From Neocallimastix lanati (nom. inval.) (taxonomy: Eukaryota > Neocallimastigomycota > Neocallimastigomycetes > Neocallimastigales > Neocallimastigaceae): a stretch of 43,906 bases of DNA. Below, in pieces: positions 606 through 32,473 of this stretch. How positions within the stretch are numbered: position 1 is the first letter of the stretch; each line of letters begins with the position of its first letter. The notes below the pieces were generated by a model. The model was not told the DNA's origin. It was given only the letters and a program-made list of their open reading frames with translations, and did not search any database. The stretch spans positions 1-43,906 of the forward strand of contig JACVTC010000332.1 of the NCBI GenBank assembly GCA_016946835.1, given 5' to 3'. The position numbers and the translations under genes are program-made.

Positions 606-677
606 TGGAGATATCGGGGATCGAACCCGAGGCTTCTTGCATGCAAAGCAAGCACTCTACCACTGAGTTATATCCCC
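606..677 (-). tRNA. tRNA-Ala(UGC)
   Basis: The minus strand folds as a complete 72-nt cloverleaf. The acceptor GGGGATA pairs with TATCTCC and contains the G3-U70 wobble pair that marks alanine tRNAs. The D stem is ACTC/GAGT, the anticodon stem CTTGC/GCAAG with loop TTTGCAT (anticodon TGC), and the T stem TCGGG/CCCGA with loop TTCGATC; the discriminator is A. No intron is present and CCA is not encoded. A-box (TAACTCAGTGG) and B-box (GGTTCGATCCC) are intact, so the gene should be transcribed. Its 5' flank is a hotspot for retrotransposon insertion, and its 3' end matches the primer sites of elements C, D and X. Confidence 0.97.
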
Positions 678-691
678 AGTGGTAAAGAATG

Positions 692-1449
692 TGATACAGA
701 TTGGAATTCTTAAGCATAAAATTATTAGAAAGCTTGAATAATATCTAACCTATTCAACAACAAATTAATAAATTAAAATTTGAAATTAAAATCATAATAA
801 AAAAATTTATTTTAATTAAATTCTAAAACTCGAAATTATACTTTAATTCTATTTTAATTTTTAAAATAATGAAATATTAATGTTAATTAATTTCTCTTTT
901 TAATTAAAAGTAAATAGTTTGTAAACAATTTTTTCTTTTTTTTTATTATTTTGAATTCTTTGTTTATAATAATTCTTGTATTAATTGTTTATTTGTTTAT
1001 TTTATTGTTTATTTTTATAAATATAATTATTCTTAATTATTTTATTATTAAAAATTGTAAATACTTTAAATTATTGTAAAAATATAAATACTTGTAAATA
1101 TTTTATAAAATTAATTTCTCGTTGTTATTAGAAATGTAATAAAAAAAATAATAACCAAATATTATAATAATAAATAATAATAAAAATTAATAAATAATAA
1201 TAAAAATTAATAAATATAATAATAAAAATTAATAAATATAATAATAAAAATTAATTCTAAACACAAAAGAAATGTATAATTTTGAAAAATTAATAACAAT
1301 TCAGTGTTAAGCTAGAATAATAATAACTTAATTATTAATAATAATAACATAAATTCATTTATATTAAATTTATATTAATTCAAACTTGATACATCTATTA
1401 TCACTTTTGAAGTAATAACTTCAAATTAAGATAATAGAATCGTTTGTCA
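692..1449 (+). repeat. 5' LTR of element A
   Basis: Starts TGATACAG and ends TTTGTCA. It repeats at 6839-7599. A TATA box (TATAAATA, 1083-1090) likely starts the genomic transcript. The rest is AT-rich with TAATAATAAAAATTAA-type short repeats that account for the length difference from the 3' copy. Confidence 0.93.
1083..1090 (+). promoter_or_regulatory. TATA box in 5' LTR A
   Basis: TATAAATA preceded by an A run. The same octamer occurs at a similar place in the LTRs of C (9221-9228), D (25493-25500) and E (41431-41438). Confidence 0.55.
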
Positions 1450-1451
1450 AT

Positions 1452-1467
1452 TGGTGGAGAGTGAGTG
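1452..1467 (+). other. Primer binding site of element A
   Basis: TGGTGGAGAGTGAGTG begins 2 nt after the LTR. The leading TGG would pair with tRNA CCA. The remainder does not match tRNA-Ala(UGC), so a different tRNA primes; that tRNA is not in the window. Confidence 0.6.
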
Positions 1468-1526
1468 ATATAACTCCTATAAGAGTAAGTTATATCTATT
1501 TTAATTATTCAAGTAGATTTAAGTAG

Positions 1527-1567
<41 letters not shown>

Positions 1568-1637
1568 AATTATTAGGACGAGTGTTAGAATACTCGGTTA
1601 TACGTTGTTTTTGAGTGTATTCAATAAGCTCATTTGC

Positions 1638-1784
1638 AACTCGTTTAGACGAATCTATTTGGTTAGAGACTGCGTAAAGGATTACTATAAAAGACGTAAT
1701 CTAATCCCATATCTCTTCAACAGAGTGAGGTTGCAGTAAACGAGTTAACAACGGTTAATGCGCTTAGATCACCGAAGGTCTAAG
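1638..1784 (+). other. Structured leader RNA of element A
   Basis: A 10-bp perfect stem (AACTCGTTTA 1638-1647 with TAAACGAGTT 1737-1746) encloses a hairpin GATTAC/GTAATC (1680-1685/1696-1701) and a small hairpin CTC-TTCAACA-GAG (1713-1725). It is followed by the hairpin CTTAGA/TCTAAG (1763-1784) with loop TCACCGAAGG, identical to the loop in element D. No protein is encoded between the primer site and gag. Possible roles are packaging, dimerisation or translation; none is shown by the sequence. Confidence 0.6.
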
Positions 1785-2096
1785 ATTAAATATATAGTTT
1801 TAAAATTTTCTTTTAAGGGTTTACTTGTTCCCTTTTTGTTATATTAACACCGCCGGTTTTTTTTTTATAGTTGTGAGGCAAAGGTGTTAATTAAAATAAA
1901 ATTGTATACAAATACTACTATCTACAGTCGAAAGAATAATTAAAAAAAAAAAAAAAAAAAAAAAAATTTTTTTCTTTTTGCAAGAATAAATAAAAAAGAA
2001 ATAAGTAAAATAATTCATAAATTCATAAATTAAGATAAGCGAAAATATAAATTGTAAGGTTTCTTTTTAAAATTTATAAATAAAATAATAATAATA

Positions 2097-3065
2097 ATGG
2101 AAAATTCAACCAAGGCAATAACCTTTAATAGGTTACCTATATTAGGGAAGGATAAGGTTTCCTTTGAGGAATGGCATTTTTCGTATGAACGCTGGTGTAA
2201 AGCTAATAAAATAGAAGAAGAAGAAGATAAAATTGAATACTTAATCTCCTTAACTACAGATATAGCGAGAACCATTGTATTCAATTCATTAAACAAAGAA
2301 GCACCAGATAGTTACAAAACTATAATAAATAAATTAAGAGGACATTTCAGAGTCTCTACCTCTAAAAATGCCAGATTATTGGAATTATCTACAGTCATTA
2401 TTAAAAAAGGGGAAAGAATTTCTGAATTTGATGTAAGATTCAATACCCTATGTAATCAAGTGAATTTAGAAATTAGTGACAAAGTTATCACTTCATATTA
2501 TATTAATGCTTTTAAGAATTGGGGTAAAATTTATGAAGCCTTATTAGAAGAGGAACCAACCTCACTTCAGGATGCAATGAAAATAACATCCAAGAAAGGA
2601 AAAATTATTGCTTTAATGGAAGAAAATAAAAATAAATATAAAAAATTACACGGAGTTAACAAGAAAGAAATAAAAGATTTCAATGAATCTAAAAATTATA
2701 ATAATAATTATAACAATTATAATTATAGAAATGATTATTTTTCAACTTCAAATTCCAGATCGAATAATAAGCAATATAACAACAATAATAATAATTATAA
2801 TCGTTACGATAATAAAAATAAACATAATGATAACTATAATAACAATATAAGAAATAATAGGTATAAAATGCAATCAAGAGAAGAAATAAACAAAGGAATT
2901 GAACATAGAATGAACACTTTAAGGTACCCTCAATCAACAATAGAAGATTTAGATGACATTACAAAAAAATTAGAACAATTAAAAATAAATTTTTGTGTAC
3001 AATGTAAACGAATTGGTCACAAAATGAATGATTGCCCTGAAAACGACGAAAGCCATTTAAATTAA
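2097..3065 (+). CDS. gag: Gag of element A
   Basis: This 322-residue structural protein should assemble the particle and bind RNA. The N-terminal two thirds is capsid-like helical sequence (FEEWHFSYERWCK... and a region around ERISEFDVRFNTLCNQ typical of Ty3/gypsy gag). An Asn/Tyr-rich low-complexity linker lies at about residues 195-265. A single CCHC knuckle (CVQCKRIGHKMNDC) is near the C-terminus. The ATG at 2097 is the first in frame after a stop-rich leader. The gene ends SHLN-stop, where the last sense codons form the slippery heptamer, so a fraction of ribosomes should enter pol. Pol lies in the -1 frame. Confidence 0.93.
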   Translation: MENSTKAITFNRLPILGKDKVSFEEWHFSYERWCKANKIEEEEDKIEYLISLTTDIARTIVFNSLNKEAPDSYKTIINKLRGHFRVSTSKNARLLELSTVIIKKGERISEFDVRFNTLCNQVNLEISDKVITSYYINAFKNWGKIYEALLEEEPTSLQDAMKITSKKGKIIALMEENKNKYKKLHGVNKKEIKDFNESKNYNNNYNNYNYRNDYFSTSNSRSNNKQYNNNNNNYNRYDNKNKHNDNYNNNIRNNRYKMQSREEINKGIEHRMNTLRYPQSTIEDLDDITKKLEQLKINFCVQCKRIGHKMNDCPENDESHLN

Positions 3066-3105
3066 TAATCGGGAGTACGCAATCTCCCAGGACAATTAAA
3101 ATTGC
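3056..3105 (+). promoter_or_regulatory. -1 ribosomal frameshift signal, element A
   Basis: The heptamer TTTAAAT (3056-3062) is in the correct phase (T TTA AAT). The gag stop follows at once within an 8-nt spacer (3063-3070). Stem 1 is GGGAG 3071-3075 with CTCCC 3084-3088. Stem 2 pairs loop GCAAT 3079-3083 with ATTGC 3101-3105, giving an H-type pseudoknot. The layout is the same in C, D and E, with a different stem 2. Confidence 0.88.
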
Positions 3106-6100
3106 AAATGAAAATGAAAATGAAAATGAAAATGAAAATAATTTCGAAAGAAGTGAAAATGACAAAGAAAATTTCACTAAAGAAGAAAGTAATATTGAAA
3201 GAAATTCTTCAAACTTTATCGGTACAGTACAAAAGAGAAAAACTTCGACAAGAAAATTAAATAACAAATCTATAGTAAAGCCTTCATTATTAAGTGAACC
3301 CAAAACAAAATTAGTAAAACAACAAAAGAAAGTAATTAAAGATGCTAGAAGAAGAAAGCTTAGCAATTCTGAAGAAAATGAACCAAATACTAGTGATGAT
3401 ATAGTGATGGAAGTTAATGAAGAAGAAAATAGCAATGAAAATGAGATTAATGGAGCCTCATATATTGAAAGTAATAATGAAAAAGAATCAGAAAAACCAA
3501 AAACTATTAAGAAAAGAAAAATGACCAATATCCAAATGTTAAATGAAAATGAAAAGTTTAGTATAACTGAAGAAGCTAATAACCTTTTTCCAAAAATTAG
3601 TTTATCTCAATTATTATCTGCAAGTCCGTCCATTAGAAAAGAACTTGAACAAGGTTGTAAACCAAGAGTTGAGAAAATTCTTTGTTCCTTAACTAATACA
3701 AGTCTTCCTATTATTTGTGGTGAAATAGATAATAAGACATTTAAAATCTTATACGATACCGGTGCAAACGTTAATGTTATAACAAATAATTGTCTAGGCA
3801 AACTAAAACATAAAGTAATTAAACAATGTGAAAATTTAGAAGATATTACCATTGTGGATGGTACTAAAGTAACTACAAATAGTTACATTGAATTAAAAAT
3901 AAACGTAAATAATAGATTAACTATTACAGAAAAATTCTATGTAATTAATTATACGAATCCATATTTTGAAATTATATTTGGTAGAGGAATTCAGAAAAAG
4001 TATCGTTTGTATATAGATCCAGATGATGATGCTGTCTACCAGAAAATTAAGAAAGGAATTAAACAAGTAACCTATATAATTAATAGTAAATCAGAAATAC
4101 CTCTTGTTAATTCCATTATTATAGAAAAAGATGAACAACAAGAGTTCATCGATACATTAAATAAAATTATTGAATCTGTCCCGGAAAAATTTAAGACAGA
4201 ATTTAAAAATTTAATTGAGAAGTATAAAAACTGTATGGCAACTTCAATGTCACAATTAAGTACAGCTAATTTAGAACCACATTCAATTGTGACAATTAGT
4301 AATAAACCTATAAAATTAAAACCATACAAATTATCAAAAGAGCATGCAGATATTCTTAAATCGGAAATAATTAAACTATTAGAAAAAGGACTTATAGTTC
4401 CTTCACATTCTCCATGGTCTTTTCCTGTTCTATTAGTTCAAAAGAAAAATGGGAAATGGAGAATGTGTATTGATTATCGCAAATTAAATGAAATTACTAT
4501 AAAAGATTCTTACGCACTACCATTTATAGATGAACTAATTTATTCAGTAAATGGTGCGACGGTATTCTCCGCATTAGACTTATATTCTGGATATCATCAA
4601 ATTCCAATGAATCCAGAAGATATAGAGAAAACAGCATTTACCACAAAATTCGGCAATTACAATTTTAAAGTAATGCCATTTGGCCTTACCAATGCTCCCG
4701 CTACCTTCCAACGGGAGATGAATAGAATATTACTTCCTTTAATCGGTAAATGTTTATTTGTTTACTTAGATGATATTGTAATTTATTCAAGAACTCTTGA
4801 TGAACATCTTAAACATTTAAAGTTAGCTTTTGAAATATTTTCTAAATACAATCTTTCTCTTAACTTACAAAAATGTAAATTCTTTCAAGAAAGTGTTGAA
4901 GTATTAGGTCATGTTCTAACATCAAAAGGATTAAAAACAATTCCATCAAAAGTACAAAGTATTGCTTTGTGGGACAATCCTAAAGATGTAAGTGAACTTC
5001 GTTCTTTTTTAGGTTTAGCTAGTTATTATAGAAAATTTATTCAAAATTTCTCAATTATTGCTGACCCTCTTTTTAAGTTATTAAAAAAGAATTCAAAATA
5101 TATATGGTCAAATGAATGCGAAGAAGCTTTCGAAAATATTAAAGAATGTTTACTTAATGATCCAATATTAAGTTACCCAGATTTTAAAAAGGAATTCATC
5201 ATTCGTACTGATGCTTCTCTTAAAGGTATTGGTGGTGTTCTTTTACAGAAGGAAGAGGATAGTCTTGAACATCCTATCTGTTGCGTAAGTAGAACACTCT
5301 CTACATCTGAAAAGAATTACTCCGTAACGGACTTAGAAGGATTAGCTGTTATATTTAGTTTAAAATATTTTAGTCAATATATATTAAGCAATAAAAATTT
5401 AACAAAATTTATTACGGATCATAAACCATTACTTGGGTTTTTCAAAAAAAGCATTCCTACTTCTAATCGTCATGCAAGATGGATAGAAGAATTTAACAAA
5501 TATAAGATTGAACTTATTTACGAGAAAGGAAAGAAAAATGTATTCGCTGATGCGTTATCAAGATTACCTTCTAAAAATTCAAAAGGAATTATTCAATGCG
5601 CTAATGCAATATTAGCCGACTTTAATCCAAGGGATTTGGATCTACCAGAAGGTATAATAAAATACTTCACTAAGAATTATCAAGTTGTTGATAATACTCT
5701 ATATTATAAAAAAGATGATCTTTATTTAAAAGTCATCTATAAAGATGAAGACAAAAAGGATATTATTAATCGTGCCCATTTAGTAGGACATGAAGGAGCA
5801 GAGAAAACTACTAATAGAATTATGCAATCTTACTATTGGCCTGGCATTTGGAATGATGTAAGAATGTGGATAAAAAGTTGTCACAAATGTCAAACATGCA
5901 GGCCTAAACCATTTCCAAAAAGTTCTGGAGATAATGCTACCCCTGTTGAACAACCATTTACTAGAGTAGGACTCGATATAATAGGACCGTTACCAACTAC
6001 TAAAAATGGTAACAATTATATAATAACCTTAGTCGATTATTTTACCAAGTGGGTTGAAGCTAAAGCAATCCCGAACATGAAATCCGAAGAAGTAATAAAA

Positions 6101-6826
6101 TTTCTTGTTGAAATATTTACAAGACATGGACCACCTGAAATAATAATTACCGACAATGGTAGTTCCTTTATCTCTGAAGTAACAAAGATGATGATTGACC
6201 TTTATGGTTCATGGGTTCATTACGTTTCCCCGCATCATCCTGAATCGAATGGAATGATTGAGAATCGAAACAGAGAAATAGGGAAGTTATTAAGATTATT
6301 AGTAGAAAATGAGTCTGAATGGGATGAATATCTTCCATCGGCTTTATGGGCCTTAAGAACTACTAAAAATTCAAAAACAAAATTTAGTAGTTTCGAATTA
6401 CTTTATGGCAGACACGACACTTGGCCATTAGAAGTCATGTTCCCCGATATTTATAAAGATCCAAATGAATCAGAAGAAGAATATATATTTCGACGTTTCT
6501 TAAGACATCAAAATTGGGTAAAACAGGCTACTGAATATTCAGAATATGCAAATAAATATTGGGAACACCGTATTGGATTTCAAAATGCACTAAAGAAGAA
6601 ATATAAACCAGGAGATTACGTAATGATAAGACTTATAGGAAGAAGTAAATTAAATCCTTACTTTTACGGACCTTTTAAAGTTGTTAATAAACAAAAATTC
6701 AATACCTTAGTATTAGAAGATCCAACTACTGGAAAACTCTTAAATAGAAATGTTCATATTAAAAATGTTTTTCCATATGTACTTCAAGAAAATTCTTTGA
6801 CTTCAAGGGACGAAGTCATCTCTTAA
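3062..6826 (+). CDS. pol: Pol of element A (PR-RT-RNaseH-IN), -1 frame
   Basis: The frame is open from 3041, so it joins gag by -1 frameshifting; the first ATG is only at 3404. A charged Asn/Glu-rich N-terminal part comes first. The aspartic protease has canonical DTGAN (Asp codon 3755). Reverse transcriptase follows with YLDD (4763-4774), then RNase H with RTDAS, DLEG and TDHKP. The integrase has an HHCC zinc motif (HLVGHEG...CHKCQTC) and D,D-35-E at codons 5975, 6152 and 6260. The C-terminus has a GPY/F-like module (YFYGPFKVV). No chromodomain is evident. All catalytic residues are present, so the element could be active. Confidence 0.95.
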   Translation, partial: LIIGSTQSPRTIKIANENENENENENNFERSENDKENFTKEESNIERNSSNFIGTVQKRKTSTRKLNNKSIVKPSLLSEPKTKLVKQQKKVIKDARRRKLSNSEENEPNTSDDIVMEVNEEENSNENEINGASYIESNNEKESEKPKTIKKRKMTNIQMLNENEKFSITEEANNLFPKISLSQLLSASPSIRKELEQGCKPRVEKILCSLTNTSLPIICGEIDNKTFKILYDTGANVNVITNNCLGKLKHKVIKQCENLEDITIVDGTKVTTNSYIELKINVNNRLTITEKFYVINYTNPYFEIIFGRGIQKKYRLYIDPDDDAVYQKIKKGIKQVTYIINSKSEIPLVNSIIIEKDEQQEFIDTLNKIIESVPEKFKTEFKNLIEKYKNCMATSMSQLSTANLEPHSIVTISNKPIKLKPYKLSKEHADILKSEIIKLLEKGLIVPSHSPWSFPVLLVQKKNGKWRMCIDYRKLNEITIKDSYALPFIDELIYSVNGATVFSALDLYSGYHQIPMNPEDIEKTAFTTKFGNYNFKVMPFGLTNAPATFQREMNRILLPLIGKCLFVYLDDIVIYSRTLDEHLKHLKLAFEIFSKYNLSLNLQKCKFFQESVEVLGHVLTSKGLKTIPSKVQSIALWDNPKDVSELRSFLGLASYYRKFIQNFSIIADPLFKLLKKNSKYIWSNECEEAFENIKECLLNDPILSYPDFKKEFIIRTDASLKGIGGVLLQKEEDSLEHPICCVSRTLSTSEKNYSVTDLEGLAVIFSLKYFSQYILSNKNLTKFITDHKPLLGFFKKSIPTSNRHARWIEEFNKYKIELIYEKGKKNVFADALSRLPSKNSKGIIQCANAILADFNPRDLDLPEGIIKYFTKNYQVVDNTLYYKKDDLYLKVIYKDEDKKDIINRAHLVGHEGAEKTTNRIMQSYYWPGIWNDVRMWIKSCHKCQTCRPKPFPKSSGDNATPVEQPFTRVGLDIIGPLPTTKNGNNYIITLVDYFTKWVEAKAIPNMKSEEVIKFLVEIFTRHGPPEIIITDNGSSFISEVTKMMIDLYGSWVHYVSPHHPESNGMIENRNREIGKLLRLLVENESEWDEYLPSALWALRTTKNSKTKFSSFELLYGRHDTWPLEVMFPDIYKDPNESEEEYIFRRFLRHQNWVKQATEYSEYANKYWEHRIGFQNALKKKYKPGDYVMIRLIGRSKLNPYFYGPFKVVNKQKFNTLVLEDPTTGKLLNRNVHIKNVFPYVLQENSLTSRDEVIS

Positions 6827-6838
6827 GGGCCGACGAAT

Positions 6839-7599
6839 TGATACAGATTGGAATTCTTAAGCATAAAATTATTAGAAAGCTTGAATAATATCTAACCTAT
6901 TCAACAACAAATTAATAAATTAAAATTTGAAATTAAAATCATAATAAAAAAATTTATTTTAATTAAATTCTAAAACTCGAAATTATACTTTAATTCTATT
7001 TTAATTTTTAAAATAATGAAATATTAATGTTAATTAATTTCTCTTTTTAATTAAAAGTAAATAGTTTGTAAACAATTTTTTCTTTTTTTTTATTATTTTG
7101 AATTCTTTGTTTATAATAATTCTTGTATTAATTGTTTATTTGTTTATTTTATTGTTTATTTTTATAAATATAATTATTCTTAATTATTTTATTATTAAAA
7201 ATTGTAAATACTTTAAATTATTGTAAAAATATAAATACTTGTAAATATTTTATAAAATTAATTTCTCGTTGTTATTAGAAATGTAATAAAAAAAATAATA
7301 ACCAAATATTATAATAATAAATAATAATAAAAATTAATAAATAATAATAAAAAAAATTAATAAATATAATAATAAAAATTAATAAATATAATAATAAAAA
7401 TTAATTCTAAACACAAAAGAAATGTATAATTTTGAAAAATTAATAACAATTCAGTGTTAAGCTAGAATAATAATAACTTAATTATTAATAATAATAACAT
7501 AAATTCATTTATATTAAATTTATATTAATTCAAACTTGATACATCTATTATCACTTTTGAAGTAATAACTTCAAATTAAGATAATAGAATCGTTTGTCA
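6839..7599 (+). repeat. 3' LTR of element A with polypurine tract
   Basis: Starts TGATACAG directly after the plus-strand primer region CTTAAGGGCCGACGAAT (6822-6838), which follows the pol stop. It is 3 bp longer than the 5' LTR. It ends TTTGTCA, followed by the AATG duplication and the rest of LTR B1. Confidence 0.92.
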
Positions 7600-8536
7600 A
7601 ATGAATTAATAACCTTTATTTTATTATTAATAATTCTTTACTAAATTGTACTTTCCTATATTCTTGATAACCTAAACTTAATAATAAAATTTAATTTATT
7701 TTGATATAAATTAATTTTAACTTGTAAATAATGTAAATAAATTTAATTAATTATTTTATTGTTATTAAATATATGTATATTAAAATACAATTGTAAATAT
7801 TAAAATTATACTTTTAAGATACTAAACTATTAAAACTATTAATTAAATATTATTATAAAAATTATTATAAATTATTAATATTATAAAATTATTAAAATTA
7901 TTAATTAAATATTATTCTAAAAATTATTATAAATTATTAATATTATAAAATTATTAAAATTATTAAATATTATTATAAAAATTTATATATTATAACTATT
8001 AAATATTATTATAAAATTATTAAGATTATTAATTAAATTTATTATTAAAAATTATTATTAAAAATTTTTACTTATTATAAAAATTATTATTTAAATATTA
8101 TCAAATTTATTAATTAAATATTATAAAAATTTTATTTTATTTTGAAAATAATTACAAGTATTATTTAAAATAATTAAAGATTATTAAATTTATTATATTA
8201 ATCTTTAAAAACAATTTATTTAACTTAAAAATATCAAAGAAAATAGTAAAAACTATTTTCTATATATTTATTTTATAATTATTTTTAATTAAATTATATT
8301 TGAATATTATATTATTATATTTATAAAAATTAAAACAAAAATGAATTATTGATATAAAATTAATTCAATAATTCTATAAAATTACTTAAATTATAAACAA
8401 TTAATTATACTTTAAATTTATAAAAAAATATAAATATTGTAACAATTTCTTAAAAATTAATATGTGTACTTTAAATAATAAAATTTTATATTAATAAAAA
8501 AATAAATAACTTTTAATAAAGAATTATTTTTTTTTT

Positions 8537-8586
8537 ATTTAAAATCAAAGCAGGGTAATACCCGTCCCCCCTGCTTGATTTTAAAT
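8537..8586 (+). repeat. GC-rich hairpin near the 3' end of LTR B1
   Basis: Arms 8537-8555 and 8569-8586 pair along about 18 bp with one bulged A (core AGCAGGG/CCCTGCT) around a loop containing TAATACCCGTCC. The same hairpin is at 16631-16681 in LTR B2, where the C run is one longer. It stands out in otherwise AT-only sequence. A role in RNA 3' end formation or encapsidation is possible. Confidence 0.7.
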
Positions 8587-8630
8587 ATCTAAGTGTCAAC
8601 CCCGAGTCTACCACCAGTATTTGATATTGT

Positions 8631-9416
8631 TAATACAGAATGAACAAATAATACTAATTGTGCTAGAATAATATAAATTATTCTAACCTTATAGATTATT
8701 CTATTCTATATAATTGGAACTTTCCAATATTCTTCAAATATTACTAAATAGAAATCTTAAGTTAATAAATCACTAATTAACTTATAATTCCTTTTTGAAT
8801 TATCGATCCTATTCCATTATAATGTATTAAAAATCTTTAGCCAAGAATATTGTCCTTGCCCACTTAATATATTAATATTATATTTCTTTTGTATTATGTT
8901 ATATTGAAAATAATCAAATCTATTTAATTAGTTATTAAAATTTTCGTTATCAATTTAAATTTATTTTTAATTACTAAATTTAACTAAACCACAATAAAAT
9001 ATTCTGTATAATCTCTTTATTTTTATTTTATATATATTAGTATTAAACTATTATTAAATAATTAATAATTCAATAATATATAACTACTATTTATAACAAT
9101 AATATTATTAACTAAAATAATAATTCAATTTCAATTTAAATGTTTTATTTATAAAAATAATTAGTAATTAGTTTATTAAAAAAATAGTTAGGCTTTACAA
9201 ATTTTAATTTGATAAAAAAATATAAATACATGTAATTTTAGTGAAATAAAATATAATCAATAACTTTCTTTTTATTAAATAAATAATTATATTATTATTT
9301 TTCTTTTATAAATTTAAATAAATAAATATTGATTTTAAAACAAATTATTTTTTTATTGTAATTTTATTATTTGTGTTAATTATTATTATATTCCTAAAAT
9401 TATATGAACCATACCA
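8631..9416 (+). repeat. 5' LTR of element C
   Basis: 786 bp, from TAATACAG to CATACCA. A perfect 9-bp hairpin (TAGAATAAT/ATTATTCTA) lies near the 5' end. GGCTTTACA (9191-9199) stands about 22 bp before TATAAATA (9221-9228); the same pair of motifs recurs in LTR E, suggesting a shared promoter. Confidence 0.92.
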
Positions 9417-9424
9417 TGAAAAAT

Positions 9425-9442
9425 TGGTGGAGATATCGGGGA
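9425..9442 (+). other. Primer binding site of element C (tRNA-Ala)
   Basis: TGGTGGAGATATCGGGGA is the exact complement of CCA plus the last 15 nt of the tRNA-Ala(UGC) encoded at 606-677. It starts 8 nt after the LTR. Confidence 0.92.
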
Positions 9443-9600
9443 ATATAATAATAAATTAATACATTAGGGATAAAATTATAATATTAATAAATAATTTTTC
9501 TAATAAAACAAATAATTTTTTTTAAAAAACAATTTTTATATTTTTAACTAATTATTATTAATTGTTAAAAATATTAATTAATATTAAATTAAACTAATAT

Positions 9601-9766
9601 TCGTGCATAGATTTCCGGGTTAAGTTTATCCTACATAGTAATTGGGCTAGTAGGCTCTGGACTGCTATTTTTTATATTGAAAATAGTAACCGTGGCACAC
9701 GCGTGGCATGACACCTTTCAAGAGGTAAGCTGCACGTCAGACAGTGTGTACTATCAGATTGCACGA
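9601..9766 (+). other. Conserved structured leader domain, element C
   Basis: TCGTGCA (9601-9607) pairs with TGCACGA (9760-9766). An internal hairpin CTATTTT/AAAATAG (9665-9671/9680-9686) has loop TTATATTG. The primary sequence between is strongly conserved with 26329-26488 in element D, and both stems show compensatory changes there. It lies about 160 nt upstream of gag and has no ORF. Confidence 0.75.
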
Positions 9767-9923
9767 TTATTATAATTTAATAAATGATTAATAATAATAA
9801 ATAATTAATAATTTTATTAGTTAAAAGATTTATTTTTTTTTAATTTTTTTTTTATTTTTATTTTTTATAACAATTTATACATTACGAGGTTTAGCATTCT
9901 ATAGATACAATAAATTTTATTTA

Positions 9924-10841
9924 ATGAGAACATCCAGTACTTCCAGTACTCCAACAGAGAGTACTCCAGAAAGTAAGCTTAGCTTCAGAGAATTAAAGAA
10001 AGAATTAAAAGATTTTGAAAAGCTTACTAAACAAAACCTTGACATCAACTCCTGGGCAAATGAGTTAAAGGCATGGATAAAATACCAACATATCAAGGAT
10101 CCTGAAACTATTTTTACTGCTTGTATATTAACGGCTTCTGGAGAACCAAGAGAAATTATCCAAGAACTAGAAGATGGAAATGACCTTACTGAAGATGAAG
10201 ATTCTGATTTCGATAGCGATAGTGAAGGAGAAGATGATGAAGAAAGTGAATCTACTACCACCTACCCAAGCCTTGATGAAATCATAAATCATCTGAAGAC
10301 TTTCTATGGACTTAAAGAAGATCAAACCAACTTGTTACGAGAATTGCGTTCCATGAAAATAAAGAAGAACGAGAAAGTTAAAGATTTTAATGTCCGTTAT
10401 AGATCTTTGTACCATAAATTGGATAAAAAGAGAAGAAGAAAAATTAGTGTTTTAGATTATGCAGATTCCTTAACCAATAATCCTGACGCATGGAGAAAGG
10501 TTATGCTTAAAGACCATATTTCTATTACCAAAGCGTTCGCTATAGCTGAAAAAGTTGATCGTTTATCTATTAAAAATAGTACTGAATATTATGATAAGAC
10601 TCATTACAATCTCCTTAACTCTAAAAGTAATTTTAATAAGAACATTTCAAATGATTTTAACAAACCAAAAACACACAAAAATGTATCTATAGAAAATATC
10701 ACTAACAAGATGAAAGAAATGAAAATTAGTACTTGCTGGTTTTGTAGCAATGAAGGACATACCAAACGAAACTGTCCTAAATTAAATTCTATATTGGAAA
10801 ATAACCGCAAGAAGTTTTATGAAAATCATTTAAACCACTAA
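9924..10841 (+). CDS. gag: Gag of element C
   Basis: A 305-residue gag. The N-terminus has the block LSFRELKKELKDFEKLTKQNLDINSW shared with D and E. A strongly acidic tract (about residues 90-112, EDEDSDFDSDSEGEDDEE) follows, then the helical segment around RELRSMKIKKNEKVKDFNVRYRSLYHKL. One CCHC knuckle (CWFCSNEGHTKRNC) is near the C-terminus. The ATG at 9924 starts the conserved block almost at once. It ends HLNH-stop on the frameshift heptamer. The acidic tract is conserved in place but not in sequence in D and E, which suggests a flexible spacer. Confidence 0.94.
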   Translation: MRTSSTSSTPTESTPESKLSFRELKKELKDFEKLTKQNLDINSWANELKAWIKYQHIKDPETIFTACILTASGEPREIIQELEDGNDLTEDEDSDFDSDSEGEDDEESESTTTYPSLDEIINHLKTFYGLKEDQTNLLRELRSMKIKKNEKVKDFNVRYRSLYHKLDKKRRRKISVLDYADSLTNNPDAWRKVMLKDHISITKAFAIAEKVDRLSIKNSTEYYDKTHYNLLNSKSNFNKNISNDFNKPKTHKNVSIENITNKMKEMKISTCWFCSNEGHTKRNCPKLNSILENNRKKFYENHLNH

Positions 10842-10881
10842 AAGGGAGTAGAAGCACTCCCATCGTCAAAAAAATTGCTTC
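10829..10881 (+). promoter_or_regulatory. -1 ribosomal frameshift signal, element C
   Basis: Heptamer TTTAAAC (10829-10835), an 8-nt spacer with the gag stop (10836-10843), stem 1 GGGAGT 10844-10849 with ACTCCC 10856-10861, and stem 2 GAAGC 10851-10855 with GCTTC 10877-10881. The phase T TTA AAC is correct for entering the pol frame. Confidence 0.9.
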
Positions 10882-13800
10882 AGTCTGCCATCGTCCCAAA
10901 ATAGTTGACTTAAAAGAAGATGATGATTATGAAGAAACTGCTGATTTCCAAGAAGGTACTACTGCGGATTATTACGAAGATTTTGATGATAAGTCGGATG
11001 GTTCCAAAGAATTGAATTACTTAGTAAACGTTATAAAGAGAAAGGCAAATCATAAAGATGAAGAGACTAGTGACCAAAGAGAAAAGAGGGTTCACCGTAG
11101 TCTAAGAGATGATCCTAAGCCAATAGTTACTCCAGGTTTACGAAAACAAAAAGAAAATCAATTAAGGGGAACATCGCGACCAGTCAAAAAGCCAACAACT
11201 CAATTACATCCTTCGATTATGGTTCAACCTAGAATAGAAAAAGAAAAGAGAATTGAGAAAGAGCTAAGAGATAAGGAAAGAGCTAGTACTAGTACTTCTG
11301 TGGAAAATAATAATAATAATAGTAATGTTAATGTTATTAATGAAGAAACTTCTCAGGAAGAAAATAATTCTAAACAAACTTTAAATAAATTAATTCAAGA
11401 AAAATCATCAGAAAAGTCAACTGAAATTATGCCAACTAGAATTCCAAAAAGAATACAAATGCAAACTGATTGTGATAGTTATGACGTGATCAAAGATTTA
11501 AACTCCAGTAATTGCAATATTACATTTGGACAATTATTGGACGTTGCTCCAAAGATACGGTCTCAAGTATCACAAGGACTTAAATTAGAAAAGAATAATA
11601 CTAAAATTTCAGGTGCAGTGGATAATATGTGTGCTACTACAATAATAACGAACAATATAGATCATACATATAAAAGTAAACATCATGAACCACAAGAAGA
11701 TGATATTGCTATGGTTGATGTAATAGTAGATGGAGTTCGTGGTAAGGCTTTAATAGATTCATGTAGCAACTTAAGTATTATCACAAAGCAATTTTTAGAT
11801 AAATTACCTTATCAGTATGAACCTATAGGAGTTAGTGCAGGACGAATACGTTTAGCAACGATGAATGATGATTACTCAGAAGATGTGTTAATCAAAGTTC
11901 CCGTAAAAATTAATGAACTAGAACTACTTGTTACGTGTAGAATTATAGACAAGGAGGATCCATTCTATGATATATTAATCAACTTCAAAACTCAAATTGA
12001 TAACCAGTTATTTATACATCCAATTAGATATAGTCTTTGTCGATTTAATGATCAAGGTTTAATTGAAGAAATTGCACCTATTAATAATGAATATGATGAC
12101 GAAGAAAAATTATTATGTGTAATCAAAGCATTGAATCACCAAGAAGCTAAGCAACAATTGAAAACGATTGAAGGATTACCACCCATAAAATATATATATG
12201 ACACAGTTTTTCAAAGTACAATTAATTCAAATTATAGAGAAGCTATTACTAAATTACTTGAAGAATATATTGATATAATTGCAACTTCTTCTGAAGAATT
12301 AACACCTTCAGATTTATCACCACACAAAATTATTCTTAAGGAAGGAGTTAAACCTATTAAACAAAAATTTTATCGACTTAGTAAATTAAAAACAGATATC
12401 TTAAAAGAAGAATTAACCAAACTCATATATAAACGATTAATTGAACCTTCATGTTCAGAATGGTCATCACCAGTAGTACTTGTGCCTAAAAAGAACGGTA
12501 AATGGCGCCTGTGTATTGACTATAGGAAAGTAAATGAAGCAACTAAGAAGGATTCTTATTCTTTACCAAATATTGAGGAAATTTTTGATAGCTTAGATGG
12601 AGCAAAAATCTTCTCAACATTAGATCTTTATTCCGGTTATCATCAAATATTAATGGATGATGATAGTGTTGAAATCACTACCTTTACAACTAAGTTCGGA
12701 AACTACCAATTCAAGGTAATGCCCTTCGGTTTAACAGGTGCTCCAGCTACATTCCAAAGAGAAATGAACCGTATACTATTTCCCTTAATAGGAAAATGCG
12801 TCTATAACTTTATCGATGATATTTTAATCTACTCAAGAACTGAAGAAGAACATCTAGAACATCTTAAACAAGTCTTAGAAATATTCAAGGAACATAAGTT
12901 AAAAATCAATATCGAAAAGTGTTCTTTCATGCAAACTGAGGTAGAAGTACTTGGACATAAAGTATCCTCAGAAGGTTTAAGTCCATTGGAAAACAAAGTT
13001 GAAGCTATTAAAGAATGGAAGGCTCCCTCTAACATTCATGAACTTCAATCATTTTTAGGAGCCATTGGATATTATAGAAATTTTATTAAGGACTTTGCAA
13101 AAGTTACTGCTCCTCTCTGCACTCTATTAAGAAAAGGTGTTAAGTTTGAATGGAAAAAGGAACAAGAAGAAAGTTTTAAAATTCTTAAGGAAAGATTAAT
13201 CAATGCCCCAATATTAAGATTTCCTAGATTCGATAGAGAATTTATTATAAGAACAGATGCTTCCTATGATGGTATAGGCGGTGTGCTTTTACAAAAGGAT
13301 GATGAAACTGGAAAGGAACATCCGGTTCATTATATTAGTAGAAGTTTATCTAAATCGGAAAAGAATTATGGAATTACGGATCTAGAAGGTGCTGCTCTAA
13401 TTTACTGTATTAATAAATTAAAATCTTATATTATGGGAAATCCTAAGCAAACTATAGTATATACAGATCATAGACCATTAATCGGATTACTTAAAAGTAA
13501 GGAACCACAAAATTCTCGTCATACTAGATGGTGTTTGACTGTCAGTATGTTAGGAATTGATTTACGATATGAAACTGGAAAGAATAATGTTGTCGCAGAT
13601 GCTTTATCAAGAATGAAAAATGAAAAAGAAAAAGTTGTCTTAACAACACAAATTATCAAGGAACAAGATGAAAACCTGCTTTCAAGAACCATTAAGGAAT
13701 TTATTGAAGAAAAATTTACGACAATTGATGGTGTGGACTACTATGTTGATGGCAATAATTATAGAAAATTAGTTACAGATACAAAAGAAAAACTTCAATT

Positions 13801-14833
13801 AATTTTTCAAGCACACAGTATAGGACACGAAGGGTATTACAAGACATACCAACGTTTGAAAAAGAGCTACTATTGGAACAATATGGTTAATGACATTAAG
13901 CGAATTATAGGTAAATGTGAAAAATGTCAATTAAATAAATCTCAACCATACCCTGAACCAACGGAAGATAAACCAACTGAAGTGGAAGGACCATTTACAC
14001 ACTTAGGATTGGACATTATAGGACCTCTAAATAAAACCAGAAATAATAATCAATATATAATCGTTGTGGTTGATTATTTTACTAAATGGGTTGAGGCAGA
14101 GCCCACTGAAAATGTTACTTCTCAGGATGTGATAAAATTTTTAATTAATGTATTTGCTCGACACGGTGTACCTCAAATTATCACTACTGATAATGGAACA
14201 CAATTTACATCAGATATGACAAAAATCTTCCTTGATTTATATGATGTATATGTTAAATTTATCACTCCATATCATCCTGAAAGCAATGGTTTAGTTGAGA
14301 ATCGTAATAAAGAAATTGGAAAATTATTACGATTACTAGGACAACAACACAAAGAATGGGATGAAATTTTACCATCTGCACTTTGGGCTTTAAGAACTAC
14401 TAAAAACTCAATCACCAACCATTCAAGTTTTGAATTAGTTTATGGAAGGGAGGACCAACAACCTTTTGACATTGCTGCCAGACCAACTAAGGGTATAAAT
14501 AAGTCTTCTGACGAAATTCTACTGGAAAAATTTGTATCACACTACCAATGGGTAATGGAGGCCGCATCTAATATCAAAAATGCTTCGAAATATTGGGCTA
14601 CTAGGAGAGAAGAAAAGATAAGTATGAATCAAGCTAAAAGAATAAAACCAGGTGATTTAGTACTAGTAAGAAACTTTAATCGAACTAAATTAGAACCTTA
14701 CTTTGTTGGACCTATGAAAGTGGTAAAGAAACAATTCAATACAGTCACTTTAGCCGATCCTGCTACTAATATACAAATGAATCGTAATGTTCATTTGAAA
14801 AATATTGTCAAGTTTAACTCAGCTTCTACCTAG
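10835..14833 (+). CDS. pol: Pol of element C (PR-RT-RNaseH-IN), -1 frame
   Basis: Open from the heptamer without a stop; the first ATG is at 11012. A long basic/charged N-terminal region precedes the protease-like domain, whose active-site loop reads DSCSN (Asp codon 11756) where D-T/S-G-A/S is expected. RT carries FIDD (12809-12820), then RNase H (RTDAS, DLEG, TDHRP). Integrase has HHCC (HSIGHEG...CEKCQ) and D,D-35-E at codons 14012, 14189 and 14297. The end is a GPY/F-like module (YFVGPMKVV). Apart from the protease glycine, all catalytic residues are present. Confidence 0.95.
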   Translation, partial: PLKGSRSTPIVKKIASVCHRPKIVDLKEDDDYEETADFQEGTTADYYEDFDDKSDGSKELNYLVNVIKRKANHKDEETSDQREKRVHRSLRDDPKPIVTPGLRKQKENQLRGTSRPVKKPTTQLHPSIMVQPRIEKEKRIEKELRDKERASTSTSVENNNNNSNVNVINEETSQEENNSKQTLNKLIQEKSSEKSTEIMPTRIPKRIQMQTDCDSYDVIKDLNSSNCNITFGQLLDVAPKIRSQVSQGLKLEKNNTKISGAVDNMCATTIITNNIDHTYKSKHHEPQEDDIAMVDVIVDGVRGKALIDSCSNLSIITKQFLDKLPYQYEPIGVSAGRIRLATMNDDYSEDVLIKVPVKINELELLVTCRIIDKEDPFYDILINFKTQIDNQLFIHPIRYSLCRFNDQGLIEEIAPINNEYDDEEKLLCVIKALNHQEAKQQLKTIEGLPPIKYIYDTVFQSTINSNYREAITKLLEEYIDIIATSSEELTPSDLSPHKIILKEGVKPIKQKFYRLSKLKTDILKEELTKLIYKRLIEPSCSEWSSPVVLVPKKNGKWRLCIDYRKVNEATKKDSYSLPNIEEIFDSLDGAKIFSTLDLYSGYHQILMDDDSVEITTFTTKFGNYQFKVMPFGLTGAPATFQREMNRILFPLIGKCVYNFIDDILIYSRTEEEHLEHLKQVLEIFKEHKLKINIEKCSFMQTEVEVLGHKVSSEGLSPLENKVEAIKEWKAPSNIHELQSFLGAIGYYRNFIKDFAKVTAPLCTLLRKGVKFEWKKEQEESFKILKERLINAPILRFPRFDREFIIRTDASYDGIGGVLLQKDDETGKEHPVHYISRSLSKSEKNYGITDLEGAALIYCINKLKSYIMGNPKQTIVYTDHRPLIGLLKSKEPQNSRHTRWCLTVSMLGIDLRYETGKNNVVADALSRMKNEKEKVVLTTQIIKEQDENLLSRTIKEFIEEKFTTIDGVDYYVDGNNYRKLVTDTKEKLQLIFQAHSIGHEGYYKTYQRLKKSYYWNNMVNDIKRIIGKCEKCQLNKSQPYPEPTEDKPTEVEGPFTHLGLDIIGPLNKTRNNNQYIIVVVDYFTKWVEAEPTENVTSQDVIKFLINVFARHGVPQIITTDNGTQFTSDMTKIFLDLYDVYVKFITPYHPESNGLVENRNKEIGKLLRLLGQQHKEWDEILPSALWALRTTKNSITNHSSFELVYGREDQQPFDIAARPTKGINKSSDEILLEKFVSHYQWVMEAASNIKNASKYWATRREEKISMNQAKRIKPGDLVLVRNFNRTKLEPYFVGPMKVVKKQFNTVTLADPATNIQMNRNVHLKNIVKFNSAST

Positions 14834-14856
14834 CTTGAGTCTTAGCGGGGGCATCT

Positions 14857-15642
14857 TAATACAGAATGAACAAATAATACTAATTGTGCTAGAATAATAT
14901 AAATTATTCTAACCTTATAGATTATTCTATTCTATATAATTGGAACTTTCCAATATTCTTCAAATATTACTAAATAGAAATCTTAAGTTAATAAATCACT
15001 AATTAACTTATAATTCCTTTTTGAATTATCGATCCGATTCCATTATAATGTATTAAAAATCTTTAGCCAAGAATATTGTCCTTGCCCACTTAATATATTA
15101 ATATTATATTTCTTTTGTATTATGTTATATTGAAAATAATCAAATCTATTTAATTAGTTATTAAAATTTTCGTTATCAATTTAAATTTATTTTTAATTAC
15201 TAAATTTAACTAAACCACAATAAAATATTCTGTATAATCTCTTTATTTTTATTTTATATATATTAGTATTAAACTATTATTAAATAATTAATAATTCAAT
15301 AATATATAACTACTATTTATAACAATAATATTATTAACTAAAATAATAATTCAATTTCAATTTAAATGTTTTATTTATAAAAATAATTAGTAATTAGTTT
15401 ATTAAAAAAATAGTTAGGCTTTACAAATTTTAATTTGATAAAAAAATATAAATACATGTAATTTTAGTGAAATAAAATATAATCAATAACTTTCTTTTTA
15501 TTAAATAAATAATTATATTATTATTTTTCTTTTATAAATTTAAATAAATAAATATTGATTTTAAAACAAATTATTTTTTTATTGTAATTTTATTATTTGT
15601 GTTAATTATTATTATATTCCTAAAATTATATGAACCATACCA
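14857..15642 (+). repeat. 3' LTR of element C with polypurine tract
   Basis: Follows the plus-strand primer CTTAGCGGGGGCATCT (14841-14856), shared in form with D and E. The sequence matches the 5' LTR except for a T-to-G change seen near 15035. It ends ACCA, then TTGT and LTR B2. Confidence 0.93.
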
Positions 15643-15646
15643 TTGT

Positions 15647-16708
15647 TGGTAAAGAATGAATTAATAACCTTTATTTTATTATTAATAATTCTTTACTAAA
15701 TTGTACTTTCCTATATTCTTGATAACCTAAACTTAATAATAAAATTTAATTTATTTTGATATAAATTAATTTTAACTTGTAAATAATGTAAATAAATTTT
15801 AATTAATTATTTTATTGTTATATTATTAAATATATGTATATTAAAATACAATTGTAAATATTAAAATTATACTTTTAAGATACTAAACTATTAAAACTAT
15901 TAATTAAATATTATTATAAAAATTATTATAAAATTTTTAAAATTATTAATTAAATATTATTATAAAAATTATTATAAAATTATTAAAATTATTAATTAAA
16001 TATTATTCTAAAAATTATTATAAATTATTAATATTATAAAATTATTAAAATTATTAAATATTATTATAAAAATTTATATATTATAACTATTAAATATTAT
16101 TATAAAATTATTAAGATTATTAATTAAATTTATTATTAAAAATTATTATTAAAAATTTTTACTTATTATAAAAATTATTATTTAAATATTATCAAATTTA
16201 TTAATTAAATATTATAAAAATTTTATTTTATTTTGAAAATAATTACAAGTATTATTTAAAATAATTAAAGATTATTAAATTTATTATATTAATCTTTAAA
16301 AACAATTTATTTAACTTAAAAATATCAAAGAAAATAGTAAAAACTATTTTCTATATATTTATTTTATAATTATTTTTAATTAAATTATATTTGAATATTA
16401 TATTATTATATTTATAAAAATTAAAACAAAAATGAATTATTGATATAAAATTAATTCAATAATTCTATAAAATTACTTAAATTATAAACAATTAATTATA
16501 CTTTAAATTTATAAAAAAATATAAATATTGTAACAATTTCTTAAAAATTAATATGTGTACTTTAAATAATAAAATTTTATATTAATAAAAAAATAAATAA
16601 CTTTTAATAAAGAATTATTATTTTTTTTTTATTTAAAATCAAAGCAGGGTAATACCCGTCCCCCCCTGCTTGATTTTAAATATCTAAGTGTCAACCCCGA
16701 GTCTACCA
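15647..16708 (+). repeat. LTR B2, solo LTR
   Basis: 1062 bp, TGGTAAAG to TCTACCA, flanked by TTGT at 15643-15646 and 16709-16712. It matches LTR B1 with extra ATTATTATAAAA-type repeat units and one more C in the GC hairpin (16631-16681). Its left duplication is shared with element C. Confidence 0.9.
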
Positions 16709-16712
16709 TTGT

Positions 16713-17309
16713 TGATACAATACAGCTAGAAATACGCAAGAAAATTAACAAAAGAGAAAATACTATAATAATATAGTGAAAAATAATTACAATATATAAT
16801 ATACTAAATCATTATATAAATAGATTAAAAATTAATTAGACAGCCAATAATATTCAAGATAAAATTAATTAATAAATTTAAAAGAAGAGAATGAAATAAA
16901 AGTTAAAGAGAGAGTTTTCTTGTTGTTTTAAAAATTCTAATTGAGTAAAATAATAGTTTTAGAGAAGTTATAGTTTAGTTTAAATAATTAAGTAATTACT
17001 TATAGTTAAAGGATAAGAGTTGAATCCTACAATTATAAGTAAAATTATTATTAAGATATTAATATAAATTGAATTATTAGAGATAGATAAAAATCATTAT
17101 ATTCAGAGGAATATAAATATAATTGTAATAATTTATGTAAAATAAATAAATAAATAAAAACAAGATTTAAAAAGAAATAAATAAATTTTATTATTTGTGT
17201 AAATTATTATTTATTATCTTTGAGTTGGAATATATTATTTTACAAATTCCCTATTTGCTCGACCTCGTTATAAATAGAAATTTGATACTTTATTACTTAT
17301 ATTGTATCA
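16713..17309 (+). repeat. LTR F, solo LTR
   Basis: 597 bp from TGATACAA to TTGTATCA, bounded by TTGT at 16709-16712 and 17310-17313. No second copy is in the window, so the call rests on TG...CA ends, duplication and its place in the stack. TATAAATA is near 17270. Confidence 0.75.
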
Positions 17310-17315
17310 TTGTGT

Positions 17316-18054
17316 TGTAAAGAATTATAATTATTTTTCAAAATAATTATTATTCTTTATTAAATGTTAAAATTAAGATATAAAATAGTTTTATGATTAA
17401 TAACGTTACTAGGTTAATATGTTGAATTATATATTAATAATCCAACAATAATTAATTAATAATAATATAAAAATAATATAAGATAAATAGTTAAGTTATT
17501 TAAACACTTAATATCTAAGAATATTTTAAATAATAATTTCTTTGAAGGATTTATGAAAATATTTATTTATTGAATTATTAGTATATAATTATTGTAAGTA
17601 CAATAACCTTACTAAGAACATAAAAGATAGATTTTTACATCTTTCTTTTATACTTTGTAAGTTACATAATAATAATATTTAATTATAAGATATTAATAAT
17701 ATAGTAATATGAATATTAATAAAATATTAAGATAATAACAATATCGATATGTTTAAAATATTTAATATAACTAAATAAATTTAATTTATAATTATATAAT
17801 TAATTTGAATAATTAAAAATAGTAGTTAATATATATGATGTAAACATATATATAAACATAATATAAATAAATACATGTGACGTCATATGTAGATAATTGA
17901 AATTATTAATATAAATCTTATTTACTAATATTCTCAGAATTATTAGGCCTAAGATAATTCCTTAAATATTAAATAAGAATTTATATTAATTATTAATTAT
18001 TTAAATATATATATTATTTATAATTAAATAAATAATATTTGTTAACTATTGAAA
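17316..18054 (+). repeat. LTR-like sequence K (end uncertain)
   Basis: Begins TGTAAAGAATTATAATT with a near-terminal inverted repeat (TAAAGAAT...ATTCTTTA), the pattern seen at the start of LTRs B, E and G. No matching end or duplication was found. It contains the palindrome TGACGTCA (17878-17885). No ORF is present; the rest is AT-rich. Confidence 0.4.
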
Positions 18055-18899
18055 TGTAAATAACTGAAATTGAGATTTCAATTCAGTTATAATTTCAACA
18101 TAAAAAATTAATATTTAAAGTTTATTATTTTATAAAATTTTATGAATAATTTTATTAATTATGTCACATAGTAATTATTAATTAATGTTATTGTTTTAAA
18201 ATTTATTTACATTAAATTAAATTATCAATAATTAATATATTAAATTATAATAATGTATTATTGTATTAAAATAATGGTAAATTCTATTTAATTAAGAAAA
18301 ATTAAATTGTATTAAAATGATAATTTTATTTAATCAAGAAATAATTAAATTATATTATTTCTTGGACTTTTAATTAAGATAATTAAAAGAATTAATTATT
18401 TAATTATACTTGTGATTAAATATTAATAAAATTAATATATAATTAGTTAATAAGTTTTCTCCCTTATTCGGGTTTTCTTATTAACTAAAGATTGATGTAA
18501 TTAAACACCAATCGAGATCTATCTAGTTTTTTCTTCTAATCTTTTTCTAGATAGAGATAATTTTCCAAGATTAGAAATCAAATTAATATAAATAGGACTC
18601 TTGATTCTTCTAAAAATAATCAAGAGTTATTATTATAAGAAATTATAATAATTAACACAAATATTTTAAAATTACTTTTAATAAAAAATTTTTATAATAA
18701 AATAATTTCTAAAATACTTTTAACCTACTTTTAGTGTTGTTTATTATAATCTTATAATAAACTCTAAGTTTTTAAATTTTCGTTTTCAATTTTTATATTA
18801 TATTTTTTAATTTTATCTCAATTAATAATATTTTTTATTATTAATTGTAGAAAGAATTAATTATTAATATAATTAAATATTTTTAATTAATTCTATACA
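18055..18899 (+). repeat. LTR-like sequence L (family of LTR G)
   Basis: About 845 bp, starting TGTAAATAACTG with a hairpin and ending CTATACA. The block from the TATCTAG/CTAGATA region through ATAAATAGGACTCTTGA to a hairpin opening CTCAAT and closing ATTGTAG parallels LTR G at 33180-33620. The flanks do not show a clean duplication. Confidence 0.5.
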
Positions 18900-24185: not shown

Positions 24186-24700
24186 TGTAACGAATATTGG
24201 AATATCCGTGTTTTAAAGAGTGTAACACAATAGGTAAGCACTTTTTGATTAATAAGTAATTTGGTTTTTTAAAATATAGTTTTATTAATTAAGAAATTTA
24301 AAAATATTAATTATAAAGATTAATTATTGTAATATTTCGAATTACTTATTAATTAATTCAATAATTAATAAAAACACAATTTTTAGAATATTATTTTTTT
24401 TTTTTTGGCTGCGAAATTCACTCCTATTTATAGTTTTTCAAAATTTAAATCCATAAAAATTTAAAACCATAAAATCATTAAAAAGTTTCATAAAAATTGA
24501 TTATTTTCGGTTAAAAAGAATCTAAAAGAAATAATGATAAAAGATAAATTAAAATAGAATTTCTATCTGATTTGTTTCTATTAATTTCTAAGAATTTCTT
24601 TTGTTAATTTTTTACAGAAATTTATACAGAAACAAATACAGAAACAAATACAGAAATGAAGTATAAAAATTCTTTAAAATTTAAATGATATAAAATTTTA
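24186..24700. other. Body of unit J, no ORF
   Basis: AT-rich. It includes a run of T (24390-24403), the minus-strand TATA motif, and a short direct repeat ACAGAAACAAAT near 24628-24650. No coding sequence is supported. Confidence 0.5.
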
Positions 24701-24705
24701 GTAAA

Positions 24706-24770
24706 GGTGTGAGTCGAACCCTAGTGGTTCAGGCTGAGGTCATAGTGACTAACCACTATGCCAGCATTCT
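24706..24770 (-). ncRNA. tRNA-like A-box/B-box sequence (degenerate)
   Basis: The minus strand has a full A-box match (TGGCATAGTGG, 24763-24753) and a near-perfect B-box (GGTTCGACTCA) about 35 nt later. The D-arm area reads CATAGTGGTTAGT as in fungal Asp/Glu tRNAs. Acceptor and T stems do not pair, so it is not a functional tRNA; hairpins CATAGTG/CACTATG and TAGTGGTT/AACCACTA form instead. It may be a tRNA remnant, a SINE-like promoter or a Pol III promoter within J. The D and G insertions lie where they would for a real tRNA. Confidence 0.45.
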
Positions 24771-24785
24771 AATTTCTAATTTTTT

Positions 24786-25266: not shown

Positions 25267-25320
<54 letters not shown>

Positions 25321-25633: not shown

Positions 25634-25639
25634 TTTATA

Positions 25640-25657
25640 TGGTGGAGATATCGGGGA
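25640..25657 (+). other. Primer binding site of element D (tRNA-Ala)
   Basis: TGGTGGAGATATCGGGGA, 6 nt after the LTR, identical to the site in element C and complementary to tRNA-Ala(UGC). Confidence 0.93.

Positions 25658-32420: not shown

Positions 32421-32473
<53 letters not shown>

Follow-up and report, generated by a model that had tools for sequence, protein, structure and literature searches.

The stack of Ty3-like elements and solo LTRs upstream of a tRNA-Ala gene in the window (i.e. the whole stretch of 43,906 nucleotides analysed, C260:1-43906, from an assembly of 199 Mb in 762 contigs) is very probably the product of repeated integration of the Ty3 type, with the Pol III initiation complex setting the position. 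Beyond this one gene, an identified LTR edge lies 11-18 bp upstream in 47 of 72 unique tRNA 5' flanks (Ala, Val, Asn, Trp and Arg), and foreign LTR edges were also found next to tRNA-like promoter boxes within the LTRs of a chromovirus.

Results

Junctions of the stack

The window has a G+C content of 23% and carries, in outward order from the tRNA gene, B1 (with element A inside it), C, B2, F and J (Table 1). The tetranucleotide TTGT is present in all four spacers from C through the end of F, and at the base composition of the window the chance of three further TTGTs at fixed places is approximately 1.4e-7. When the flanks of B1 are joined, the sequence reads tRNA, AG, 13 bp and then C, with -15 as the final base ahead of C; in tRNA-Ala this base lies 22 nt from U8. 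The junction series TTGT-C-TTGT-B2-TTGT-F-TTGT, reported in a preliminary description of this DNA, proved exact to the base in the window letters, and the positions given there for B1 (at -2, with CCAG) and A (after -14, with AATG) were likewise as stated. Duplications of 4 bp surround A, B1, C, B2 and F; a clear target duplication was also looked for around J and was not found. The strand sense of B was taken from the primer site in locus L015, and the five long pol ORFs of the window (those of A, C, D and E, and one at 19951-22695) are all on the plus strand, pointing away from the minus-strand tRNA gene. B1 at -2 straddles the tRNA start (window 676-691), unlike the other identified copies that were read. 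The far end of the window (42188-43905) holds an element cut off by the window end, in which a sequence resembling a primer site precedes an ORF that has an Asn-rich tail as well as a zinc knuckle.

Table 1. Features of the window, with positions relative to the tRNA start where given
Feature	Position	Strand	Remarks
tRNA-Ala (TGC), target	606..677	-	Rfam 677-606, so +1 = 677
CCAG, target duplication of B1	676..679		tRNA +2 to -2; other copy 8614-8617
B1 solo LTR	680..8613	+	Parts 680-691 and 7604-8613, split by element A; at -2
AATG, target duplication of A	688..691		-11 to -14; other copy 7600-7603
Element A, full-length Ty3-like	692..7599	+	LTRs 692-1449 and 6839-7599
Element A ORFs	2097-3065; pol 3404-6826	+	
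A primer-binding site	1452..1469	+	tRNA-Trp 3' end plus CCA, match judged by eye
TTGT, tRNA side of C	8627..8630		-12 to -15
Element C, full-length Ty3-like	8631..15642	+	LTRs 8631-9416 and 14857-15642
Element C ORFs	9924-10841; pol 11012-14833	+	
C primer-binding site	9425..9442	+	Complement of tRNA-Ala 3' end plus CCA
TTGT between C and B2	15643..15646		
B2 solo LTR	15647..16708	+	
TTGT between B2 and F	16709..16712		
F solo LTR	16713..17309	.	No strand assigned
TTGT beyond F	17310..17313		
J LTR	17316..18899	.	-17, 2 bp farther out; 3' limit and sense inferred from likeness to G
Chromovirus T LTR, larger part	24186..24785	-	First 16 bases at 33656-33671; 5-bp duplication ATAAT outside
tRNA-like A-box/B-box sequence in T LTR	24703..24771	-	
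Element D, full-length Ty3-like	24786..32787	+	TTTT on both sides; 22 nt from A-box T of T LTR
G LTR	32792..33651	+	Second insertion at same TTTT in T LTR

These junctions support, as their simplest reading, repeated landing at one position, with newcomers arriving between the tRNA gene and the older copies. The stack could alternatively be an assembly artefact or the outcome of recombination between elements, given that the B2 and F junctions are known from one contig only and that 43 full-length copies of the C LTR scored 99-100% alike, which favours misassembly. However, contig C36 (521199 bases), although it stops short of B2 and F, repeats the tRNA/A junction (L029) as well as that between B1 and C (L085). 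Stacks of a similar kind, with different spacers, were also encountered at other places (tRNA-Ser-ACTT-C-ACTT-H, E-GAAA-C-GAAA-B and tRNA-Thr-GCAA-A-GCAA), and the identical short duplications around each copy would not be expected from recombination; artefact or recombination is thus a very improbable source of the stack. Further 4-bp duplications were found at L086, L094, L095, L080/L081 and L102/L103.

Order and age of the copies

Element A is younger than B1, in which it is nested, and this part of the insertion order originally proposed stands. The remainder of that order we infer: if each copy landed adjoining the tRNA gene, F would have arrived before B2 and B2 before C, with B1 and A afterwards. 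The paired LTRs of A, C and D show 0 differences in 758 positions, 1 in 786 and 0 in 848, respectively, and B1 and B2 differ by 3 substitutions in 1022 and 40 gap letters. Judging from their LTR pairs, the full-length copies are young, and they are not orderable by age because paired LTRs differ by 0-1 substitutions; LTR divergence was thus uninformative as a clock, and the suggestion that older copies lie farther out draws on nesting here, no order being gained from LTR dating. As for the proposal of one fixed position hit repeatedly, the repeated landing is borne out but a single exact base is not, given a play of 1-3 bp and the outlying B1.

LTR edges at tRNA genes across the genome

The tRNA genes were sampled from best-match lists, covering 39 of the 40 matches listed for Ala, 20 of 63 for Arg/Asn, 13 of the 40 listed for Val (where L079 was chosen for its LTR and is hence biased) and 8 of the 40 listed for Trp (where L019 was a chance encounter at the point where an Ala stretch ends). 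The resulting 89 tRNA rows were reduced to 72 by dropping those Arg genes that lie behind an Asn gene, together with 8 flanks that were nearly identical. Edges were identified by family termini, with at most 4 edits, in a search 8-25 nt upstream, and all 47 fell at 11-18 nt; the other 25 of 72 flanks have no identified family within 8-25 nt (with a family library lacking F), and a looser repeat-edge test was positive in 55 of 72. When junction distance was plotted relative to tRNA genes, as had been proposed, a sharp peak was obtained, with a mode of 14-15 bp for the main clade. The dinucleotide CA, with which LTRs usually end, occurs at 13, 14, 15 and 16 nt in 12, 11, 17 and 22 of the 72 flanks, respectively. 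Targeting specific to tRNA-Ala was not borne out, being ruled out by Arg, Asn, Val and Trp flanks that also carry LTR edges. Two large clusters of tRNA-Arg and tRNA-Trp gene matches were noted (C555:170732-399007 and C555:881891-1016606), with one of the C555 tRNA-Arg matches, L061, read as Arg, as was a tandem array of five tRNA-Ala matches approximately 3.85-4.3 kb apart (C268:712126-727991, L018).

In the main clade, which comprises families A, B, C, D, E, H, I, M and P, 31 of 33 copies are divergent from the tRNA gene (binomial p 1.3e-7), and the G/J/K group, of which only the sense of G is established, is divergent in 5 cases and convergent in 9. At no more than 3 edits the respective counts are 31 versus 1 and 5 versus 6, since four convergent calls need 4 edits. 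Convergence is sound for C at L042 and probable for A at L075/L076. The senses of A, B, C, D, E, H, I and M were taken from primer sites or ORFs, that of P from the tract ahead of its second copy and that of G from pol in L020, and those of J and K rely on likeness to G.

As C primes with tRNA-Ala and sits at a tRNA-Ala gene, the primer tRNA might be thought to guide an element to its own gene, and the primer sites of both C and D match tRNA-Ala. However, D was found at tRNA-Trp, Arg and Val genes, and A, with its tRNA-Trp primer site, at Ala, Arg and Val genes; the family-by-tRNA table thus contradicts a choice of target by the primer tRNA, and this explanation is exceedingly improbable. The 18-nt tRNA-Ala primer-binding site has 901 exact copies in the genome (reversed control, 0), with those of the window at 9425, 23262 and 25640. 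Among the 100 copies listed of these 901, adjacent sites less than 12 kb apart are on the same strand in 18 cases and on opposite strands in 1, those at 12-40 kb in 18 and 5, and those beyond 40 kb in 15 and 17; this head-to-tail order at short range speaks for repeated targeted integration.

A second position farther upstream

Full elements of another Ty3-like group, the protein domains of which were read in L024, start approximately 64-67 bp upstream of tRNA-Ala in L024, L027 and L028, with 5-bp duplications and with pol directed toward the tRNA gene. Ty3-like or LTR-like ends at this distance from tRNA genes are also present in flanks L020, L054, L119, L120 and L121, and the CA dinucleotide has a further peak at 65-68 nt, in 5-7 of 72 flanks. 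L020 additionally holds a full copy of G, the flanks of which do not match each other. Among known elements, the non-LTR element TRE5 inserts approximately 50 bp from tRNA genes (PMC5006619) and Ty1 insertions are spread over approximately 1 kb (PMC5911963); the portions available of these two accounts name no Ty3-type element at approximately 64-67 bp.

tRNA-like boxes within LTRs

In the window, D and G both lie at TTTT of one T LTR, the tRNA-like sequence of which (24703-24771) carries the letters of an A box and a B box. Neither this sequence nor the related boxes in L086 and L071 had a match by ARAGORN or Rfam. As a tRNA gene, 24703-24771 was rejected on this ground and because identical copies occur in same-strand pairs, mostly 4.5-6.1 kb apart; the one such pair that was read constitutes the LTRs of T. 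T (T1) is a chromovirus, the polyprotein of which (1399 residues) comprises Gag, protease, RT, integrase and a chromodomain, the last located at the integrase C terminus (PF00385, E 9.2e-18). Diverged versions of the A-box/B-box sequence also occur in two further repeat families, T2 and T3, and T2 starts with approximately the same letters as T; their same-strand pairs, approximately 5.2-5.3 and 6.2 kb apart, respectively, suggest that these boxes also lie in LTRs.

A first look gave 215, 323 and 174 candidates for T1, T2 and T3, of which 40 each were scored. From the 40 listed for each, 20 box copies were taken (among exact matches for T1 and T3), some of which may be duplicate loci. Of these 60 copies, 41 have their native sequence upstream, 16 an identified foreign LTR edge and 3 other non-native sequence. 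The 16 edges lie 21 (two), 22 (five), 23 (seven), 25 (one) and 26 nt (one) from the A-box T, i.e. 14 of 16 at 21-23 nt, compared with 22 nt at the tRNA-Ala gene of the window. Family sense is established for 15 of these foreign edges, with 14 pointing away from the box and 1 toward it (D in L133). The position therefore appears to be set by the promoter boxes and not by the tRNA product. By analogy with tRNA genes, LTR-borne boxes may bind TFIIIC, and the case stands about evenly balanced for the wider proposal that protein-coding chromoviruses carry working Pol III boxes in their LTRs, recruit TFIIIC/TFIIIB and act as mobile landing pads for stacking elements.

Element ends as a starting point

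The converse test, read by eye, covered C starts in 20 stretches and 12 A starts. Six of 18 C LTR starts are preceded by a polypurine tract and are hence 3' LTRs. The 12 others comprise 3 at a Pol III gene or box (L086, L102 and L085, the last being the window's own C site, in contig C36), 8 that adjoin another LTR-like end with 2-4 nt between, and 1 (L087) that lies 67 nt from tRNA-Cys. Of the A starts, 3 are at a Pol III gene or box (L071, L079 and L080) and 9 adjoin LTR-like ends at 7 nt or less, L065, L067 and L073 having one common flank. In these last three, a D LTR and an M-type LTR stand head-to-head and, by eye, A is inserted one base off the shared spacer.

Such sites raise the alternative that elements target the ends of existing LTRs, copying the spacer each time, and that the tRNA gene was the first landing place only. 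Most A and C sites away from a tRNA gene or box do adjoin an LTR-like end, by eye at 2-7 nt, and same-family tandem copies are present at L098 and L104. Nevertheless, edges of a dozen families lie at about equal distance from tRNA genes of five species, spacers vary by 1-3 bp within stacks (J versus F in the window; A in L071 and L080), and A sits inside B1 and not at its end. Furthermore, insertions in T1 and T2 keep tRNA spacing from the box, some bases inside the LTR rather than at its end. Targeting of LTR ends is, on this evidence, improbable.

Element proteins and phylogeny

The five pol ORFs of the window place RT and RNase H ahead of integrase, which is the Ty3/gypsy (Metaviridae) order; the A ORF at 2097-3065 and the C ORF at 9924-10841 had no Pfam match. 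Among relatives of solved structure, Ty3 Gag-Pol is the best match to the C polyprotein (E 2.5e-105), making the initial comparison with Ty3 an apt one. The nearest named protein relatives of this polyprotein, 3 of the 120 matches listed, bear the label Orpsp1, that of the gut fungus Pecoramyces (Orpinomyces) C1A, and the host is thus probably an anaerobic gut fungus. The integrase part of C alone scored better with foamy-virus integrase (E 1.7e-34) than with Ty3 (E 1.8e-18). A pol tree of 15 rows has a fully supported branch with A, H, C, D and E on one side and, on the other, T, the G element found in L020 and the type represented by L024; tRNA targeting thus occurs on both sides of this branch.

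Discussion

Under the favoured mechanism, the insertion point of Ty3-like elements would lie at a set distance from the A box of a Pol III gene, with the integrase docking, as may be supposed from Ty3, on TFIIIB, itself placed by TFIIIC on the A and B boxes. A new copy would occupy the tRNA-adjacent place and displace older copies outward, such that the short target duplication would be copied into every spacer. The site would be set by distance rather than by flanking sequence, because A landed at -14 in B1 at a time when all sequence on the upstream side of -2 was already that of B1. A/B-box sequences in the LTRs of other elements may be read by the same machinery as tRNA genes. Certain observations stand against repeated, Pol III-positioned integration: the -2 location of B1 departs from the common one, and C at L087, a 4-bp duplication versus the 5 bp of Ty3 and the 25 of 72 flanks without an identified family count against it. 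The better match of the C integrase part, taken alone, to foamy-virus integrase than to Ty3 counts against it as well.

Insertion upstream of tRNA genes is an already known kind of targeting, described for Ty3, DGLT-A, Tj1 and several Yarrowia elements (PMC5911963); this and the following comparisons hold for the portions of the cited accounts that were available. Ty3 of Saccharomyces cerevisiae, which produces a 5-bp duplication with cuts at -6/-2 from the transcription start (PMC8632968), resembles the elements described here in its RT-RNase H-integrase order and in its insertion just upstream of Pol III genes; it differs in the length of its duplication (4 bp for A, B1, C, B2 and F), and the stacks and LTR-borne box hits seen here do not feature in that portion of the account. 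DGLT-A of dictyostelids inserts at a similar distance, approximately 15 bp upstream of mature tRNA genes (PMC5006619), but in both orientations (PMC5911963), whereas the main clade here is divergent in 31 cases and convergent in 2. Tj1 of Schizosaccharomyces japonicus is likewise a Ty3/gypsy-type, orientation-biased element upstream of tRNA genes, with a fixed orientation in the direction of the Pol III gene at 5-11 bp (PMC4600332); the main clade, in contrast, points in the opposite direction and lies at 14-15 bp. The position of B1 may be compared with that of the dictyostelid non-LTR element NLTR-A, at 2-6 bp (PMC5006619).

The closest likeness to the T boxes is found in the Helenus TRIMs (Kojima 2024), which also occur in fungi and carry in their LTR a tRNA-like sequence of promoter boxes, the RNA fold of which is not tRNA-like (PMC10886601). 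T1 shares such a sequence in its LTR, and the same setting is presumed for T2 and T3; the 5-bp duplications of fungal Helenus families are a further likeness. Helenus elements are, however, non-autonomous and differ in this from T with its encoded polyprotein; hits on the box by other elements at tRNA spacing are not described in the available part of PMC10886601. In the literature searched, which covered few subscription papers and is weak evidence of absence, no gut-fungus elements at tRNA genes and no chromoviruses with promoter boxes as integration targets were found, and in its available part PMC6875170 mentions the gut-fungus phylum merely as a screen group. The LTR-borne landing sites look new.

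Most of what has been established on Pol III targeting comes from yeasts and social amoebae, and the present case is apparently that of an early-branching fungus. What this genome adds is scale, the one-way orientation of one clade and LTR boxes apparently used as landing sites. With an LTR edge at the expected distance in 47 of the 72 sampled tRNA genes, it constitutes a large natural record of targeting, in which three variables that are usually tied are separated, namely the flank (for which B1 was substituted), the tRNA fold (not detected in the LTR boxes) and the distance from the box (approximately constant). The divergent bias of one clade, the reverse of that of Tj1, makes the orientation rule testable. 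If the LTR boxes do serve as landing pads, every new chromovirus copy would seed a fresh safe site, and the target site would itself be a transposon.
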